The position numbers and the translations under genes are program-made. A stretch of 54,425 bases of DNA. Origin: Chromatiales bacterium (GTDB taxonomy: Bacteria > Pseudomonadota > Gammaproteobacteria > Chromatiales > Chromatiaceae). The notes below the pieces were generated by a model that made no database searches, was not told where the DNA came from, and worked only from the letters and a program-made list of their open reading frames with translations. Location of the stretch: the NCBI GenBank assembly GCA_028280505.1, contig JANQLO010000004.1:1-54425 (forward strand). The letters are read 5' to 3'. This document shows, piece after piece, positions 5,730-49,395 of this stretch (position 1 is the stretch's first letter; each line of letters begins with the position of its first letter).

Positions 5730-6815
5730 ATGTTCATAGCGCGCATCCTCCGCGGCGATCTGGGCGGCAAGGTGTTTCTGTTGGTGTTGCTCACGGTATT
5801 GATTGCCGTGCCCATTTTGAATGGCTTGCCGGCCGATCATCCGCTGCATGTCTCGACCTATACGGTGACGCTGCTCGGCAAATATCTGACCTATGCATTG
5901 CTTGCGGTCGCGGTCGATCTGGTTTGGGGGTACCTCGGTATTCTGAGCCTGGGCCATGCGGCCTTTTTCGCGCTGGGCGGTTATGCCATGGGCATGTATC
6001 TCATGCGTCAGATCGGTGAGCGCGGTGTCTACGGCCATCCCGAGCTGCCCGACTTCATGGTGTTCCTGAATTGGCAGGAACTGCCGTGGTTCTGGTACGG
6101 CTTCGACCAGTTCTGGTTTGCCGCGCTGATGGTCATGGTGGTGCCCGGCCTGTTGGCCTTCGTGTTCGGTTGGTTGGCGTTCCGTTCAAGGGTCACCGGT
6201 GTGTATCTGTCGATCATCACGCAGGCGTTGACCTATGCGTTGATGTTGGCCTTTTTCCGCAACGAAATGGGTTTCGGGGGCAACAATGGGCTGACGGATT
6301 TCAAGGACATCCTCGGTTTCAGCCTTCAGGCCGACAGTACGCGGATCGGCTTGTTCATTGCCTCCGGTGTCGCATTGGCGTTGGGTTATCTGTCCTGTCG
6401 TGCTTTGGTGAAATCGCGTCTCGGTCGGGTCGCGGTTGCGATCCGTGACACCGAGGATCGCACGCGATTCATCGGTTACAAGGTCGAGCATGTCAAATTG
6501 GCGATCTTCACTTTCTCGGCCGTGCTGGCCGGTATCGCCGGTGCGCTTTACGTGCCGCAGGTCGGGATTATCAACCCGGGCGAGTTCGCGCCGTTGAATT
6601 CCATCGAGCTCGTGATCTGGGTGGCGATGGGTGGCCGTGCGACTTTGTACGGTGCGGTGCTCGGCGCCATCGGTGTGAACTACGCCAAGACATGGTTTAC
6701 CGGCGCCTTCCCGGAGATGTGGCTTTTCGCCCTGGGTGGCCTGTTCGTCGTCGTTACCTTGTTGTTGCCACGCGGTATTGCAGGCCTATGGCGGCGTAAG
6801 GAGGCGAGCGAATGA
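5730..6815 (+). CDS. urtC: Urea ABC transporter permease UrtC
   Basis: This 361-residue LivM-type permease is the second membrane subunit of the urea importer and pairs with UrtB. It has an N-terminal hydrophobic span, then LGILSLGHAAFFALGGYAMGMYL, the GVYLSIITQALTYALML segment before the cytoplasmic coupling loop, and a C-terminal span ending VTLLLPRGIAGLWRR. GFGGNNGLTDFKDILGF is typical of UrtC. It begins 3 bases after urtB and overlaps urtD by 4 bases (ATGA), so the subunits are probably translationally coupled. Confidence 0.94.
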   Translation: MFIARILRGDLGGKVFLLVLLTVLIAVPILNGLPADHPLHVSTYTVTLLGKYLTYALLAVAVDLVWGYLGILSLGHAAFFALGGYAMGMYLMRQIGERGVYGHPELPDFMVFLNWQELPWFWYGFDQFWFAALMVMVVPGLLAFVFGWLAFRSRVTGVYLSIITQALTYALMLAFFRNEMGFGGNNGLTDFKDILGFSLQADSTRIGLFIASGVALALGYLSCRALVKSRLGRVAVAIRDTEDRTRFIGYKVEHVKLAIFTFSAVLAGIAGALYVPQVGIINPGEFAPLNSIELVIWVAMGGRATLYGAVLGAIGVNYAKTWFTGAFPEMWLFALGGLFVVVTLLLPRGIAGLWRRKEASE

Positions 6816-7633
6816 ACGCCGTACGCGAGGTATTCCGTCGTGACCGGGTATTCGACTTCATGGTGCCCAAGGTGGTCGATGATCTCGATCTATCGCATGG
6901 CACCCTGCTCTATATGGAAGATGTTTCGGTCGCGTTCGATGGTTTCAAGGCGATCAACAATCTGAACTTCTACGTCGACGCCGGTGAATTACGGTGTTTG
7001 ATCGGACCAAACGGCGCCGGCAAGACGACCATGATGGATATCATCACCGGCAAGACCCGCCCGGATACCGGCACCTGCTGGTTCGGTTCGAGAATGAATC
7101 TCTTGCAGATGAACGAACCGGAGATCGCCCAGGCCGGTATCGGGCGTAAGTTTCAAAAGCCGACAGTGTTCGAACATCACTCGGTGTTCGAGAATCTCGA
7201 ACTGTCGATGGCCGGCCCGAAAGGGGTATGGCGAACGCTGTGGGCCCGTCTCAGCTCGGCTGAACGCGAACGCATCGATGAGGTGCTTGAACTCATCGGT
7301 CTTAGTGGTGAGGCACAGCGCCTGGCGGGTGCTTTGTCTCACGGTCAAAAACAATGGCTTGAAATCGGGATGCTGCTGATGCAGAACCCAATGCTGCTAT
7401 TGGTCGACGAACCCGCCGCCGGGATGACCCATCAGGAGATGGACCGCACGGTCGAATTGCTGACCTCGCTCGCCGGCGAGCATTCCGTGGTCGTGGTGGA
7501 ACACGATATGGACTTCGTTCGTGCATTGAATTCGCGGGTTACCGTGTTGCACCAGGGTACGGTGTTGGCGGAGGGCAGCATGGATCAGGTACAGAACGAT
7601 CCCAAGGTCGTCGAGGTGTACCTTGGTGAATAG
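6812..7633 (+). CDS. urtD: Urea ABC transporter ATP-binding protein UrtD
   Basis: This 273-residue ABC ATPase is one of the two motors of the urea importer. Walker A GPNGAGKT is at residues 65-72, the signature is LSHGQ at 175-179, and Walker B LLLVDEP is at 195-201. The switch His is in VVVVEHDMDFV. The LSHGQ variant and the short N-terminal extension before the ABC domain are usual for UrtD. It overlaps urtC by 4 bases and is followed by urtE after 9 bases. Confidence 0.94.
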   Translation: MNAVREVFRRDRVFDFMVPKVVDDLDLSHGTLLYMEDVSVAFDGFKAINNLNFYVDAGELRCLIGPNGAGKTTMMDIITGKTRPDTGTCWFGSRMNLLQMNEPEIAQAGIGRKFQKPTVFEHHSVFENLELSMAGPKGVWRTLWARLSSAERERIDEVLELIGLSGEAQRLAGALSHGQKQWLEIGMLLMQNPMLLLVDEPAAGMTHQEMDRTVELLTSLAGEHSVVVVEHDMDFVRALNSRVTVLHQGTVLAEGSMDQVQNDPKVVEVYLGE

Positions 7634-9746: not shown

Positions 9747-10061
9747 ATGATTCCAGGTGAAGTGATCCCCGCCGACGGCGAGATCGAACTCAATATCGGC
9801 CGCGAGACTTGCAAACTGACGGTCGCCAATACCGGCGACCGCCCGATCCAGGTCGGTTCGCATTACCATTTTTACGAGACCAACGAGGCGCTGACTTTCG
9901 ATCGTGCCAAAGCGCGCGGTTTCCGACTCAACATCCCGGCCGGTACCGCGGTGCGTTTCGAACCCGGGCAGACGCGTGAGGTCGAGTTGGTCGCCTATGC
10001 GGGCGACCGACACGTTTATGGGTTCCGGGGCCGCGTCATGGGCGCATTGGACAAGGGGTAA
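9747..10061 (+). CDS. ureB: Urease subunit beta
   Basis: This 104-residue UreB begins [16 protein letters not shown] and carries the [17 protein letters not shown] and [22 protein letters not shown] blocks of the family. ATG 9747 is preceded at ideal distance by GGAGGT (9735-9740). This is preferred to the in-frame TTG at 9729. It forms part of the urease core that caps the UreC active site. UreA and UreB are separate proteins, not fused as in Helicobacter. Confidence 0.96.
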
Positions 10062-10065
10062 GGCG

Positions 10066-11769
10066 ATGACAAGCATCAGCCGGCAGGCCTATGCAGAAAT
10101 GTACGGACCGACCGTCGGTGACCGTGTGCGCCTGGCCGATACCGAGTTGTTCATCGAGGTCGAGGAAGACCGCACCATCTATGGTGACGAGGTCAAGTTC
10201 GGTGGTGGCAAGGTGATTCGCGACGGCATGGGCCAGTCACAACATCCGGCTGCTCAGGTGGTCGACGTGGTGATCACGAATGCCCTGATCCTGGACCACT
10301 GGGGTATCGTCAAGGCGGACATCGGCATCAAGAACGGACGCATCACCGGGATCGGCAAGGCGGGCAACCCTGATGTGCAACCGGGTGTCGATATCGTTGT
10401 CGGGCCGGGTACCGAGGCGATCGCCGGTGAGGGGCAAATACTCACGGCCGGCGGCATTGACGCACACATTCATTTCATTTGTCCGCAGCAGGTCGACGAT
10501 GCCCTGATGTCGGGTGTGACCACCATGCTCGGCGGCGGTACCGGACCGGCGACCGGAACCAATGCGACAACCTGTACACCGGGCCCATGGAACATCCAAC
10601 GTATGTTGCAGGCGGCCGATGCCTTGCCGGTGAATTTGGGTTTTCTCGGTAAGGGCAATGCATCGCGTCCCGGCCCGTTGTCGGAGCAGATTGCGGCCGG
10701 TGCGATCGGACTCAAGTTGCACGAGGATTGGGGTACGACGCCGGCAGCGATCGACAATTGCCTGACGGTGGCCGAGAACTTCGACGTTCAAGTCGCCATT
10801 CATACCGATACCTTGAACGAATCCGGCTTTGTCGAGGATACGCTCGCGGCGATGGCCGGCCGTACCATCCATACCTATCACACCGAGGGTGCCGGCGGTG
10901 GCCATGCGCCGGACATCATCAAGGCCGCCGGCTACAGTAACGTACTGCCGTCGTCGACCAATCCGACCCGCCCCTATACGGTCAATACGGTCGACGAACA
11001 TCTCGACATGTTGATGGTCTGCCATCATTTGTCGCCGTCGATCGCCGAGGACGTCGCCTTCGCCGAATCGCGCATCCGGCGCGAGACCATTGCCGCCGAA
11101 GACATCCTGCATGATCTCGGTGCCTTCTCGATGATCGCGTCCGACTCGCAGGCCATGGGCCGTGTCGGCGAGGTTGTCACACGTACCTGGCAGACAGCAC
11201 ACAAAATGAAGGTGCAACGCGGCACGTTGGACGGTGACACGGCTAAACACGACAACAAACGTGCGCGGCGCTATGTCGCCAAGTACACCATCAATCCCGC
11301 CATCACCCACGGCATCGCACACGAGGTCGGTTCGGTCGAGGTCGGTAAGTTGGCCGATCTGGTGCTTTGGAAGCCAGCCTTCTTCGGTGCCAAGCCGAGT
11401 ATGGTGATCAAGGCCGGTCTGATCGTCGCCGCACCCATGGGTGATCCCAATGCGTCCATACCGACGCCGCAGCCGGTACATTACCGGCCGATGTTCGGTG
11501 CGCTCGGCGGTGCGCGGCACGCGACCCGTATGACCTTCATCTCCAAGGCTGCGCACGAAGCCGATGTGCATCGCTATCTGGGCTTGGAGTCGTTGATTGG
11601 CGTGGTGCGTGGTTGCCGCGGGGTACAAAAGGCCGACATGATCCTGAACGAATGGCAGCCGACCATCGAAGTCGATCCGCAGACCTATGAGGTGCGGGCG
11701 AATGGCGAACTGCTGACCTGTGACCCGGCAGACGTGCTGCCATTGGCTCAACGCTACTTTCTGTTTTGA
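10066..11769 (+). CDS. ureC: Urease catalytic subunit alpha
   Basis: UreC hydrolyses urea to ammonia and carbamate at a di-nickel centre. The protein is 567 residues, and its numbering coincides with the Klebsiella enzyme. The ligands are His134 and His136 (HIHFI), the carbamylated Lys217 (GLKLHED), His246 (HTDTLNE) and Asp360 (SDSQAMGR). The flap Cys319 and catalytic His320 are in MVCHHLSP. All expected residues are present, so the enzyme should be active. The start is ATG 10066 with AAGG ahead. The open frame further upstream belongs to ureB DNA in another phase. It lies 4 bases after ureB. Confidence 0.98.
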
Positions 11770-45359: not shown

Positions 45360-45857
45360 TCACCACAGCGGTTTACCCTCGCTCAACAACCGGGTGATAT
45401 GCGCCTGGAACTCGGGTGGGCCGTGCGCACTGAACAGTTGTTCGCGTTGATACACACCGTTTTCTTTTACCTGTTCGGAAAAAAGTAGCGGCCGGCCGTG
45501 CTGGGCGGCGAAACTCTTGAGCCAGTTCAACGCGCGTGGCGGGATGCGTCGACCGACCGGCACGGCGACATCGACCGGGAGATTCCGCCAAGTGGTTTTG
45601 TTGAAAATGACGATGACCTTGGCATTCTCGGGTTTCATCCAGTCCGGCAGAGGGCTGTTGTCGATTACCCAACCACAGTTGAAGTTAATGCACGGGTCTT
45701 TCGGTCGATTCGCGTAGTCGTCGCAGCCACTGCCGGTGCTGTGCGGGCAGGGTTTGCCGGGATACACGGGTACGCCTTGGATGGTCATTTGCACCCAGCC
45801 GTCGCAGCAGGCCGTGCAGGGCCGGCATTCACGCGATGCCGGTTTACGCTTGCTCAA
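45360..45857 (-). CDS. YkgJ-type cysteine-cluster protein
   Basis: This 165-residue protein carries CRPCTACCDGW near the N-terminus (the CxxCC of the zinc/iron-chelating YkgJ family), then GKPCPHSTGSGCDDYANRPKDPCINFNCGW, which together give about eight metal-ligand cysteines. The second half is not cysteine-rich and ends near FQAHITRLLSEG. The function is unknown; binding of iron-sulphur or zinc is inferred from the cysteines. It overlaps the end of coq7 by 4 bases and is probably translated from the same message. Confidence 0.82.
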   Translation of the reverse strand: MSKRKPASRECRPCTACCDGWVQMTIQGVPVYPGKPCPHSTGSGCDDYANRPKDPCINFNCGWVIDNSPLPDWMKPENAKVIVIFNKTTWRNLPVDVAVPVGRRIPPRALNWLKSFAAQHGRPLLFSEQVKENGVYQREQLFSAHGPPEFQAHITRLLSEGKPLW

Positions 45858-46501
45858 ATCCGATACACCGACTTGGTCATGAGCTTGGCGGTCGCTTTCA
45901 TTAGCGCGCGAATCGGTCCGGGCAAAGGTGCGCCACCGTGGGCCAATGCCTTTTCGCCGTGTTCGATTTCGTCGATTTTCATTTGTTCCAGGATCGCGCG
46001 TGTTCGTTCGTCATCGCAGGGAATCTGTTCCAGATGTTCGTCAAGGTGCCCTTCCACCTGGCGCTCGGTTTCCGCAACGAAGCCAAGGCTCCATTTATCG
46101 CCGGCCAAACCGGCGACTGCACCTATCGCGAATGAACCGGCGTACCAAAGCGGGTTGAGCAGGCTGAGATGGCCACCGAGTTCGTCGACCCGCTGTTCAC
46201 ACCAATCCAAATGATCATTCTCTTCGGCGGCCGAGCGCTCCATGCTGTGTCGCACTTCCGGGTCGCGTGCGGTCAACGCCTGGCCTTGGTAAAGCGCCTG
46301 CGCACATACTTCGCCGGTATGGTTTATCCGCATCAGACGGGCAATATGATCGCGCTCCAGGTCGTTTAACTCCGTCTCCGGCAAGCTATCGCCGGGGTTA
46401 CTGCGCTCGGTGGTCTTGGGGCGACCGAACAGGGTTCTCAGTGCCTGGTCGACATTGATCAACAACTCATCGGCAGCGGAGTAGTCGCGTTTTGGCGCCA
46501 T
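45854..46501 (-). CDS. coq7: Ubiquinone biosynthesis di-iron hydroxylase Coq7
   Basis: This 215-residue carboxylate-bridged di-iron monooxygenase hydroxylates 3-methyl-6-methoxy-benzoquinol, the penultimate step in ubiquinone synthesis. Iron ligands are visible in MRINHTGEVCAQALYQGQ, RSAAEENDHLDWCEQRVDELGG, and the late EGHLDEHLEQIP and MKIDEIEHGEKA. It replaces the flavin enzyme UbiF found in E. coli. The first 40 residues are variable. The start is ATG 46501. It is followed on the same strand by the YkgJ-like gene. Confidence 0.93.
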   Translation of the reverse strand: MAPKRDYSAADELLINVDQALRTLFGRPKTTERSNPGDSLPETELNDLERDHIARLMRINHTGEVCAQALYQGQALTARDPEVRHSMERSAAEENDHLDWCEQRVDELGGHLSLLNPLWYAGSFAIGAVAGLAGDKWSLGFVAETERQVEGHLDEHLEQIPCDDERTRAILEQMKIDEIEHGEKALAHGGAPLPGPIRALMKATAKLMTKSVYRI

Positions 46502-47766: not shown

Positions 47767-47812
47767 AGCCCATATAATGCGGCTTAAGCCTCAACGCTGT
47801 CCGGAAACTTGT

Positions 47813-48133
47813 ATGAGTTATTTTGCGCATCATGTGTTCTTTTGTACCAATCAACGGGACGACGGTAGTCAAAGCTGCAATCAATGCGATGCGATCGGTG
47901 CCCGGAGTTATGTCAAGCAGCGTTGCAAGGAACTGGGTATCAGCGGTGAGGGTAAGGTCAGGATAAATACAGCCGGTTGTCTCGACCGTTGTGAGCGTGG
48001 ACCGATCATCGTCGTTTACCCGGAAGCGACTTGGTACACCTATGTCGATCGGCAGGATCTGGACGAAATCATCGATCGGCATTTGGTCAAAGGTGAGATC
48101 GTCGAGCGCTTGCTGGTTGATTCGGTGTCTTGA
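47813..48133 (+). CDS. Thioredoxin-like 2Fe-2S ferredoxin
   Basis: This 106-residue protein begins MSYFAHHVFFCTNQRDDG. Cysteines at about 11 and 19-22, and the pair in NTAGCLDRCERGP, fit the thioredoxin-fold 2Fe-2S ferredoxins (the family with the C-x3-C second pair). PIIVVYPEATWYTYVDRQDLDEIIDRHL is typical of the C-terminal half. It is probably an electron carrier of unknown partner. ATG 47813 is chosen over an upstream in-frame start because family similarity begins there. It is divergent from glcF. Confidence 0.88.
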   Translation: MSYFAHHVFFCTNQRDDGSQSCNQCDAIGARSYVKQRCKELGISGEGKVRINTAGCLDRCERGPIIVVYPEATWYTYVDRQDLDEIIDRHLVKGEIVERLLVDSVS

Positions 48134-48161: not shown

Positions 48162-48193
48162 TTGACATCCAATATTTTATATAAGAATATACT
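48162..48193 (+). promoter_or_regulatory. Sigma-70 promoter of a candidate small RNA
   Basis: A perfect TTGACA (48162-48167) is followed by a very AT-rich segment. Possible -10 elements are GAATAT at 48185-48190 (17-base spacing) and TATACT at 48188-48193 (20-base spacing). Either predicts a start at about 48197-48200, exactly where the first hairpin begins. There is no downstream open frame before a terminator at 48251. Confidence 0.6.
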
Positions 48194-48198
48194 TACAT

Positions 48199-48281
48199 GC
48201 TGATTCCACTGAATCAGCTCTCCTCCATCCTCCTTTGGTGGTTATTTGTTAAGCGCGACGTCCCCCGTCGCGCTTTTTTTT
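48199..48281 (+). ncRNA. Candidate Hfq-type small RNA with an anti-Shine-Dalgarno loop
   Basis: The RNA of about 83 nt has three stem-loops. Hairpin 1 (48199-48218) is a perfect 8-bp stem GCTGATTC/GAATCAGC with a 4-nt loop. After TCTCCT, hairpin 2 (48225-48241) has a CCATC/GGTGG stem and the loop CTCCTTT. CCTCCTT across that loop equals the core of the 16S rRNA 3' end, so it could pair with ribosome-binding sites. An AT-rich linker (TTATTTGTT, 48242-48250) resembles an Hfq site. The third stem is an intrinsic terminator with an eight-T tail. No open reading frame is present. The name and targets are unknown. It could also be an unusual 3' UTR of the ferredoxin gene, though it has its own promoter. 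Confidence 0.6.
48251..48281 (+). terminator. Strong intrinsic terminator
   Basis: AAGCGCGACG and CGTCGCGCTT form a near-perfect 10-bp stem around TCCCC, followed by eight T residues. It ends the candidate small RNA and would also stop read-through from the ferredoxin gene. Confidence 0.9.
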
Positions 48282-48475: not shown

Positions 48476-48504
48476 TTGCGGACGGGCGTGTAAGTCGCTA
48501 ATAT
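48476..48504 (+). promoter_or_regulatory. Promoter of the rplM-rpsI operon
   Basis: TTGCGG (48476-48481) and TAATAT (48499-48504) are spaced 17 bases apart. Transcription should start near 48511, giving a leader of about 46 bases. Confidence 0.6.
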
Positions 48505-48556: not shown

Positions 48557-48988
48557 ATGAGCACCACGGTTAGTGCAAAGCCCGCCGAAGTTCGTCGGGA
48601 ATGGTATTTGGTCGATGCCGAGGGCAAAACCCTGGGGCGTTTGGCATCGGAGGTCGCACGCCGCCTTAAAGGCAAGCATAAGCCGATCTTTACGCCGCAT
48701 GTCGATACCGGCGATTACATCGTGGTGGTCAATGCCGAGAAGATCGCGGTGACCGGCAATAAGCTCAAGGACAAGATGTATCATCATCACACCGGTTATA
48801 TTGGCAATCTGAAGTCGATCAGTCTGGAAAAGCAGCTGCAAAAAGCGCCCGAGCGCGTCATCGAAACGGCCGTGCGTGGCATGCTGCCACGTAACCCGCT
48901 GGGCCGTGCCATGATGAAAAAGCTGCGAATCTTCGCCGGCCCCGAGCATAGTCACCAGGCACAACAACCCAAGCCGCTGGATATCTGA
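48557..48988 (+). CDS. rplM: 50S ribosomal protein L13
   Basis: This 143-residue L13 has [29 protein letters not shown] at the N-terminus, [33 protein letters not shown] and [24 protein letters not shown]. It is full length. The N-terminus is MSTTV, slightly longer than the usual MKTF form. It is followed by rpsI after 14 bases, the universal pair. Confidence 0.97.
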
Positions 48989-49002: not shown

Positions 49003-49395
49003 ATGGCACAGCAGATGAATTATGGTACCGGCCGTCGTAAAACTTCGGCCGCTCGCGTCTTCCTCAATGCCGGCAATGGCAATATCACGGTCAACGGCCG
49101 CCCGCTGGATCAGTTCTTCGGCCGCCAAACGGCCCGTATGGTCGTTCGTCAACCATTGGTCGTTACCGAAATGGCGGAAAAGATCGATGTGAATGTCACC
49201 GTTTCGGGCGGCGGTACCACCGGTCAGGCGGGTGCGATTCGACACGGTATCGCCCGCGCCTTGGTCGAACACGACGAAGCAATGCGTGCCCCGTTGCGTC
49301 GTGCCGGCTTTCTCACCCGCGATGCGCGTGCGGTCGAGCGTAAGAAGGTCGGTTTGCATAAGGCGCGTAAGCGTCCGCAGTACTCGAAGCGTTAA
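49003..49395 (+). CDS. rpsI: 30S ribosomal protein S9
   Basis: This 130-residue S9 begins with [16 protein letters not shown], has [19 protein letters not shown], and ends [17 protein letters not shown], with the conserved C-terminal Ser-Lys-Arg that reaches the P-site tRNA. It is full length. The start is ATG 49003 after GGAACG. It is translated with rplM. Confidence 0.97.

Follow-up and report, generated by a model that had tools for sequence, protein, structure and literature searches.

The window, a stretch of 54,425 nucleotides from the genome of a Chromatiales bacterium (family Chromatiaceae), contains between a 2Fe-2S ferredoxin-like gene and rplM a predicted gene for a small RNA (sRNA), whose parts and neighbours are listed in Table 1. 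This position, given in a preliminary description of the DNA, is borne out by the flanking genes, although the PF01257 match of the ferredoxin-like gene stays below the cut-off. The coq7 gene lies 1.7 kb upstream of the sRNA with two genes intervening, and a gene for Hfq is present in the genome.

Table 1. Predicted sRNA gene and neighbouring features in the window.
Feature	Position	Strand	Basis or remark
coq7	45854..46501	-	PF03232; conserved neighbour in relatives
2Fe-2S ferredoxin-like gene, upstream	47777..48133	+	PF01257, 20.8 bits, below the cut-off of 24.8
sRNA promoter	48162..48190	+	-35 TTGACA 48162-48167, 17-nt spacer, -10 GAATAT 48185-48190
Predicted sRNA, ~85 nt	48197..48281	+	predicted start about 48197-48199, end in the U run
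Hairpin 1, 8 bp, CACU loop	48199..48218	+	fold prediction
Anti-SD 1, UCUCCUCCA	48219..48227	+	single-stranded linker continuing into the 5' arm of hairpin 2
Hairpin 2	48222..48241	+	loop UCCUCCUU, 48228-48235, is anti-SD 2
AU-rich linker UUAUUUGUU, putative Hfq-type site	48242..48250	+	sequence
Intrinsic terminator, 10-bp stem and T8	48251..48281	+	stem-loop 48251-48275, eight T 48274-48281
Promoter-like sequence of rplM, separate	48476..48504	+	TTGCGG, 17 nt, TAATAT
rplM (L13), downstream neighbour	48557..48988	+	PF00572
rpsI (S9)	49003..49395	+	PF00380

The two hairpins, the AU-rich stretch and the terminator with eight T residues described before are confirmed by the fold of 48199-48281, which has a z-score of -8.0 against dinucleotide shuffles, none of 200 being equally good. 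The terminator was also picked up by a consensus scan of the region. The likeness of the hairpin 2 loop to the anti-Shine-Dalgarno (anti-SD) sequence of 16S rRNA stands as well, for CCUCCUU occurs both in the loop and at the usual 3' end of 16S rRNA; with regard to this comparison, G011, a genome of the same family, contains TGGATCACCTCCTT two times. Overlooked in the preliminary description was the second anti-SD, UCUCCUCCA, ahead of hairpin 2. The terminator loop reads UCCCC, and the loop of hairpin 1 carries no anti-SD motif.

The sigma-70 consensus is TTGACA/TATAAT. A plain scan for it found no promoter at the -35 and -10 elements of the sRNA because the -10 element is weak; the TTGACA promoter named earlier is present as sequence, and its reality rests on the conservation described below. 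The statement that the interval holds no open frame has to be corrected, as a frame of 31 codons begins with ATG at 48197. This frame extends beyond the terminator and is not conserved, and the region was rejected as a coding gene. An ATG stands at the start of only 7 of the 114 copies counted, and, counted from the predicted start, the core of the RNA is distributed over the three reading frames (48, 38 and 28 copies). A phage or plasmid element was likewise ruled out: the exact core is absent from viral contigs, and blastn gave no match in phages or plasmids at E values up to 0.01. No match was obtained in E. coli genomes either (blastn, E up to 1e-5).

Two further features of the window were recorded in passing. 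An ORF for a 23S rRNA-intervening-sequence protein (PF05635, 49440-49787) directly follows rpsI. An Rfam match to the 5'ureB sRNA (113.9 bits, 10218-10499, minus strand) lies antisense to the gene of the urease alpha subunit (9904-11769) and may only reflect the conservation of the coding sequence.

A blastn comparison of the 141-nt region with 56 genomes, taken at E values up to 1e-5, found 32 with a match, namely 28 of the 35 genomes of the window's family, its own genome included, and 4 of the 21 beyond the family. At E values up to 1 the number rises to 48, chance matches among them. In two members of the genus, G006 (80% complete) and G008 (94%), no match to the sRNA was credible. Aligned over seven genus members, the sRNA body reaches a mean majority fraction per column of 0.909 and the promoter, whose -35 element is nearly invariant, one of 0.788; the values are 0.524 for the 18 nt preceding the -35 element and 0.441 for the spacer between sRNA and rplM. 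The promoter-like core just ahead of rplM is conserved in these seven members, too.

A promoter was scored where the -35 element had at most two mismatches to TTGACA, the spacer measured 15-19 nt and the -10 region had at most four mismatches to TATATTAGAAAAT. Such a pair of elements is found in 94 of the 148 distinct copies, 54 failing the test, and in 103 of 2960 cases in base-shuffled upstream DNA, the shuffles preserving base content only and being scanned at any position, thus more freely than in the test itself. The 94 promoter-bearing copies comprise 81 with a perfect TTGACA and 82 with a spacer of 17 nt; in some copies, L016 for example, the scan chose a wrong -10 element. The six nucleotides between the -10 element and the start are AT-rich, with a mean G+C fraction of 0.36 and at most three G or C in 90 of the 94 copies, and the first eight nucleotides past the core have a mean A+T fraction of 0.72 (148 copies).

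Hairpin 1 varies in length. It has at least 5 bp in all 90 promoter-bearing copies tested, and 88 of them reach z-scores below -1.5 against shuffles that preserve base content only. Two-sided changes occur in four of its six equal-length groups (at 4 of 10, 1 of 6, 7 of 10 and 2 of 5 pairs); one of the remaining groups shows them at none of 9 pairs and the other has no consensus fold. In the terminator stem all nine pairs show two-sided changes among 76 copies. Hairpin 2 is without covariation in the same 76 copies because its stem hardly varies, 99.2% of the cells being paired. The covariation proposed earlier as a check on the gene is seen in the terminator and in hairpin 1 and not in hairpin 2. 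Hairpin 2 and its loop, whose lack of conservation in relatives had been named as grounds for dismissing the gene, are both conserved.

The core of anti-SD 1 is invariant or nearly so in the alignment A1, which is partly a selection effect because most of the aligned loci were chosen for an exact core: the loci L051-L166 represent at least 116 stretches, 80 of them named, that were selected by the exact 21-base core, so that the identity of the core among these loci carries no independent weight. Core variants do occur among the relatives found by blastn, for example in L009, L013, L019, L021, L022 and L048.

Four copies (L010, L024, L044, which is identical to L119, and L070) lack the usual promoter and hairpin 1 and instead have a long hairpin just upstream of the core. 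The stem of this hairpin varies, whereas its tip keeps the pattern GCCAAAGGC-N-GTATCG-N-AGTAG-N-G. Both L010 and L044 are located after an M20 peptidase gene, which in our own reading resembles dapE. No Rfam family scored above threshold for the long hairpin in the three copies scanned (L010, L024 and L044); it may be a new hairpin that binds a ligand or a protein and has become fused to the sRNA.

The genome contains a second copy of the sRNA besides that of the window (G000:C44:109371-109433, L041). It is flanked by queA and tgt, both of which are encoded on the opposite strand, and its end meets the stop codon of queA. Among 16 loci picked for a sequence like that of the second copy, queA was matched in all and tgt in 15. 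The 13-base complement of the core occurs exactly twice in seven of nine genus genomes, always within copies of the sRNA, and not at all in G006 and G008. Up to seven matches, which are clustered, were counted in one genome (G361). Tandem or clustered arrangements of two to four copies, about 100-200 nt apart, were noted in L108 (5783-6024, three copies), G361:C1 and C22, G287:C3 and G163:C83.

For a broader survey a covariance model, R1, was built from 76 copies. The 148 distinct copies were thinned to 80 by dropping rows longer than 78 nt or more than 90% alike, and L078, L086, L129 and L161 were left out of the alignment for their long 3' parts. At E 1e-3 or better, a value that is rough owing to the short calibration, R1 matches 165 of the 370 genomes sampled from the class and 122 of the 273 genera, and 205 genomes gave no match at this level. 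In a phylum-wide sample 31 of 299 genomes are matched at E 1e-4, of which 29 belong to the same class and two, with weak matches, lie outside it. Carriers of the exact core among the matches listed include Thiocapsa, Chromatium, Halochromatium, Thioalkalivibrio, Thiothrix, Beggiatoa, Thiomargarita, Sedimenticola and Thiodiazotropha. For Thiocapsa the strain is T. roseopersicina DSM 217, whose copy is L055. A metagenome-assembled contig labelled Gallionellaceae, a betaproteobacterial family, has a gamma-type core and a AATATTAGATAAT promoter region (L089, 329-395); either this copy is real or the contig is mis-binned.

The neighbourhood of the sRNA recurs in many relatives. For 161 distinct copies the downstream sequence extends to 900 nt or more; rplM follows in 68 of them, always on the same strand and at a distance of 129-510 nt, and is absent within 900 nt in 93, the queA-tgt copy being one of these. 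In 56 of the rplM-linked copies the upstream sequence extends to 1500 nt or more, and ferredoxin or coq7 lies within this distance in 37 of the 56; neighbours were searched by tblastn with the proteins of the window, so that divergent ones may have been overlooked. The 30 best-scoring R1 loci of the class, which were found irrespective of gene order, have rplM in 20 cases. In some relatives, for instance L107, L192 and L210, coq7 comes as close as about 0.3 kb to the sRNA.

The earlier remark that the RNA was not recognised as a named family agrees with the Rfam search, in which no family reached its threshold at the sRNA locus. Several families scored below their cut-offs there: RF02278 ('Betaproteobacteria toxic small RNA') with 27.9 bits (cut-off 50, E 0.0012), its model being aligned over the full length from 1 to 64, ncS025 with 27.5 bits (46), Aar with 26.5 bits (60) and ncS54 with 26.3 bits (43), which had the best E value of all (0.00064). 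In the RNA of the window the layout of RF02278 recurs: a CU-rich site, then a hairpin whose loop bears another such site, and finally a terminator. A search of the whole 4.65-Mb genome with RF02278 returned the two sRNA copies as the top two matches, the second copy with 34.5 bits (E 6e-5) and that of the window with 27.9 bits (E 0.003), neither of them reaching 50 bits. RF02278 is favoured because of this genome-wide search and the gene order, not because of the locus score alone; ncS54, ncS025 and Aar, which were scored at the locus, may belong to the same group as the sRNA. In a side observation, the dapE-type copy L044 (2961-3025, minus strand) matches the Burkholderia anti-hemB RNA (RF02837) with 33.9 bits at a threshold of 49.5, by which sequence likeness further Burkholderia sRNA families may belong here as well.

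Across the class sample, RF02278 matches 105 of the 370 genomes at E 1e-3, only two of them over the cut-off, and none of 14 control genomes; with an E limit of 10, 13 of these 14 known genomes have matches, none over the cut-off. Many loci are common to the searches with R1 and RF02278. Nine of twelve loci scanned pass the cut-off of RF02278. Four of these (L238-L241) have rplM-rpsI downstream and four others (L205, L206, L242 and L243) have coq7 within about 0.7 kb. The bridging copy L236 combines a -10 region of the gamma type (AATATTAGAGAAT) with an RF02278 score of 65.6 bits, and neither rplM nor coq7 nor ferredoxin was found in its 3-kb locus. The RF02278-positive genomes are presumably Betaproteobacteria. 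In the usage of GTDB the class Gammaproteobacteria also contains the Betaproteobacteria. Since RF02278 loci over threshold lie near rplM or coq7, we read the RNA of the window as the ortholog of S17/NcS27 in Gammaproteobacteria. Rfam's formal threshold leaves it outside RF02278; a shared ancestry with RF02278/S17/NcS27 is likely on the joint weight of sequence and structure, of loci found by both models and of gene order. The S17/NcS27-type family is described in PMC7011215 as exclusive to Betaproteobacteria, and open-licence articles in PMC gave no account of this RNA outside that group or of its breadth and gene order.

The place of the gene next to its neighbours allows two readings without an independent trans-acting RNA. 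It could be a cis-acting attenuator or leader of rplM-rpsI, a reading that fits the 68 of 161 copies in which rplM follows on the same strand, but we consider this very unlikely: rplM has a conserved promoter-like sequence of its own past the sRNA terminator, the spacer to rplM is unconserved (0.441), 93 of the 161 copies have no rplM within 900 nt, and the copy between queA and tgt even lies on the strand opposite its neighbours. Still less probable is that the hairpins merely close the ferredoxin transcript as its 3' UTR and terminator. They follow the ferredoxin-like gene on the same strand; a conserved promoter, however, separates them from its stop codon, and copies elsewhere have no ferredoxin found nearby. 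The sRNA may additionally be processed from a longer transcript.

Other explanations accept the gene and differ in its origin or mode of action. An anti-SD sRNA of the cuckoo type could have arisen by convergence, acting in the same way without homology to RF02278/S17, and the unmet Rfam cut-off, the similar sub-threshold scores of other CU-rich sRNA families, the fact that anti-SD motifs can arise repeatedly and the two weak R1 matches outside the class would all fit such an origin. It is nevertheless improbable, given that RF02278 aligns end to end through core and terminator, that many loci are found by both models and that the neighbourhood of rplM or coq7 as well as the bridging copy L236 connect the two sides. 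Instead of acting on individual mRNAs, the RNA could also have the ribosome or a protein as its main partner and titrate away a factor with affinity for the 16S 3' tail. Both sites resemble that tail, the core barely varies, as with one fixed partner, and no target for both sites was found in the nine genus genomes. SD targets would, however, equally keep the core fixed, and for S17 the pairing with an SD sequence was shown by paired mutations (PMC11722255), so that we hardly expect this mode of action to be the main one.

With considerable confidence we regard the RNA as an independently transcribed, trans-acting sRNA of the Hfq type, the gammaproteobacterial ortholog of S17/NcS27 (RF02278), that would mask the SD sequences of several mRNAs as a brake on a gene set. 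The stand-alone sRNA gene with an anti-SD loop postulated in the preliminary description is upheld by sequence conservation, the conserved promoter, covariation in hairpin 1 and the terminator, the genomic copies and the family structure. By analogy with its relatives the RNA would be transcribed from its own promoter as a molecule of about 85 nt and bound by Hfq at the AU-rich stretch and the U tail. The linker UCUCCUCCA and the loop UCCUCCUU would pair with the SD regions of several mRNAs and thereby block binding of the 30S subunit. Masking of SD sequences together with Hfq is the most likely mode of action, and the outcome would be a brake on a set of genes, which to judge from the relatives are probably genes of uptake and catabolism.

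The nine genus genomes contain no sequence complementary to both anti-SDs apart from the sRNA genes themselves, to which all 14 AGGAGGANGGAGG sites belong, and we therefore picture repression as acting on one SD site at a time. As a reversed control pattern likewise gave no site, the lack of a double-site target is unremarkable. Tried as a target since gltA is a target of the NmsRs, citrate synthase is not supported, ranking only 26th of 39 ORFs of the window by duplex energy. The best duplex among these 39 ORFs (-24.6 kcal/mol) is that of an ABC-transporter ATPase of the branched-chain amino-acid type (6812-7633). It is a weak lead, because several of the background ORFs are probably spurious and the start sites were guessed, and it is in line with the transporters among the S17 targets. 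A rule that connects AT-rich start regions with activation by ppGpp is quoted in PMC5362039; the AT-rich start region of the sRNA might, as a speculation, fit such activation.

The simplest reading of the gene order is a single ancestral arrangement coq7 - sRNA - rplM - rpsI, which was later broken in some Betaproteobacteria. We lean slightly towards a wider view, in which vertical inheritance would have kept one sRNA gene between coq7 and rplM-rpsI from a time before the Betaproteobacteria separated from the rest of the Gammaproteobacteria, and this gene would be among the oldest base-pairing sRNAs known. It would have been duplicated in many lineages, to the site between queA and tgt and into tandem arrays, and would serve as a general SD-covering brake that is coupled to growth rate by its place and its AT-rich start region.

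A family that one paper restricts to Betaproteobacteria has close relatives in 165 of 370 genomes of the class, often at the same chromosomal place. It offers the rare case of a base-pairing sRNA that can possibly be traced through gene order across a very long time, and the RF02278 model of Rfam could be widened accordingly. For sulfur-oxidising and phototrophic gammaproteobacteria it would provide a testable regulator, and a comparison of its targets in Beta- and Gammaproteobacteria could reveal how an sRNA with an almost frozen core selects its messages.

Among known systems, the cuckoo RNAs of Alphaproteobacteria (ar14; NfeR1, CcsR) had been named for comparison earlier, and they are functional analogues and not the nearest family. 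The ar14 model (RF02344) scores 21 bits at the locus, below its cut-off of 58.8 and below the 27.9 bits of RF02278. According to PMC10746234 and PMC10253847, they also carry anti-SD motifs in unpaired regions, and the target candidates of NfeR1 given in the former are mostly ABC transport systems. The ar14 RNAs differ in having three hairpins, each with CCUCCUCCC, whereas in the RNA of the window hairpin 1 and the terminator loop are without the motif. The NmsR siblings of Neisseria have the same anatomy, namely three stem-loops with anti-SD 1 between the first and the second and anti-SD 2 in the loop of the second (PMC5362039). They act on mRNAs of the TCA cycle, and their pairing with SD sequences is supported by anti-SD mutants; in the same paper the authors report no AU-rich Hfq stretch for the NmsRs, whereas the RNA of the window has an AU-rich linker.

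S17 (S17S) of Bordetella pertussis is closer, sharing the two CU-rich Sites 1 and 2 and the neighbour coq7. PMC11722255 describes it as an Hfq-bound RNA whose two conserved CU-rich sites are complementary to regions of ribosome binding, with a gene flanked by coq7 and a glycosyltransferase gene. In an E. coli reporter, paired mutations first abolished and then restored the repression of a sigma-54 regulator by S17, and transporters are among the S17 targets. S17S itself measures 67 nt and results from RNase E cleavage of a 190-nt precursor, while for the window a primary transcript of about 85 nt is predicted; S17S in E. coli showed no toxicity like that of ncS27.

The Burkholderia double-hairpin RNAs of RF02278 (ncS03, ncS05, ncS27 and ncS62) share with the sRNA, in the alignment to the model, the UCUCCUCCA linker, the hairpin with a CU-rich loop and the terminator hairpin. 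PMC5688073 gives them a length of 57-92 nt, three to five copies per genome and an upstream motif common to three of four homologues, and states that overexpression of ncS27 slows the growth of B. cenocepacia; a review presents NcS27 as a regulator of metabolic shutdown on nutrient deprivation (PMC10987360). The copy of the window departs from RF02278 by an additional hairpin at the 5' end and by a shorter CU-rich stretch within the loop. Multiple copies per genome are found on both sides, and eight of the nine RF02278 loci over the cut-off lie near rplM or coq7, like the gammaproteobacterial locus.
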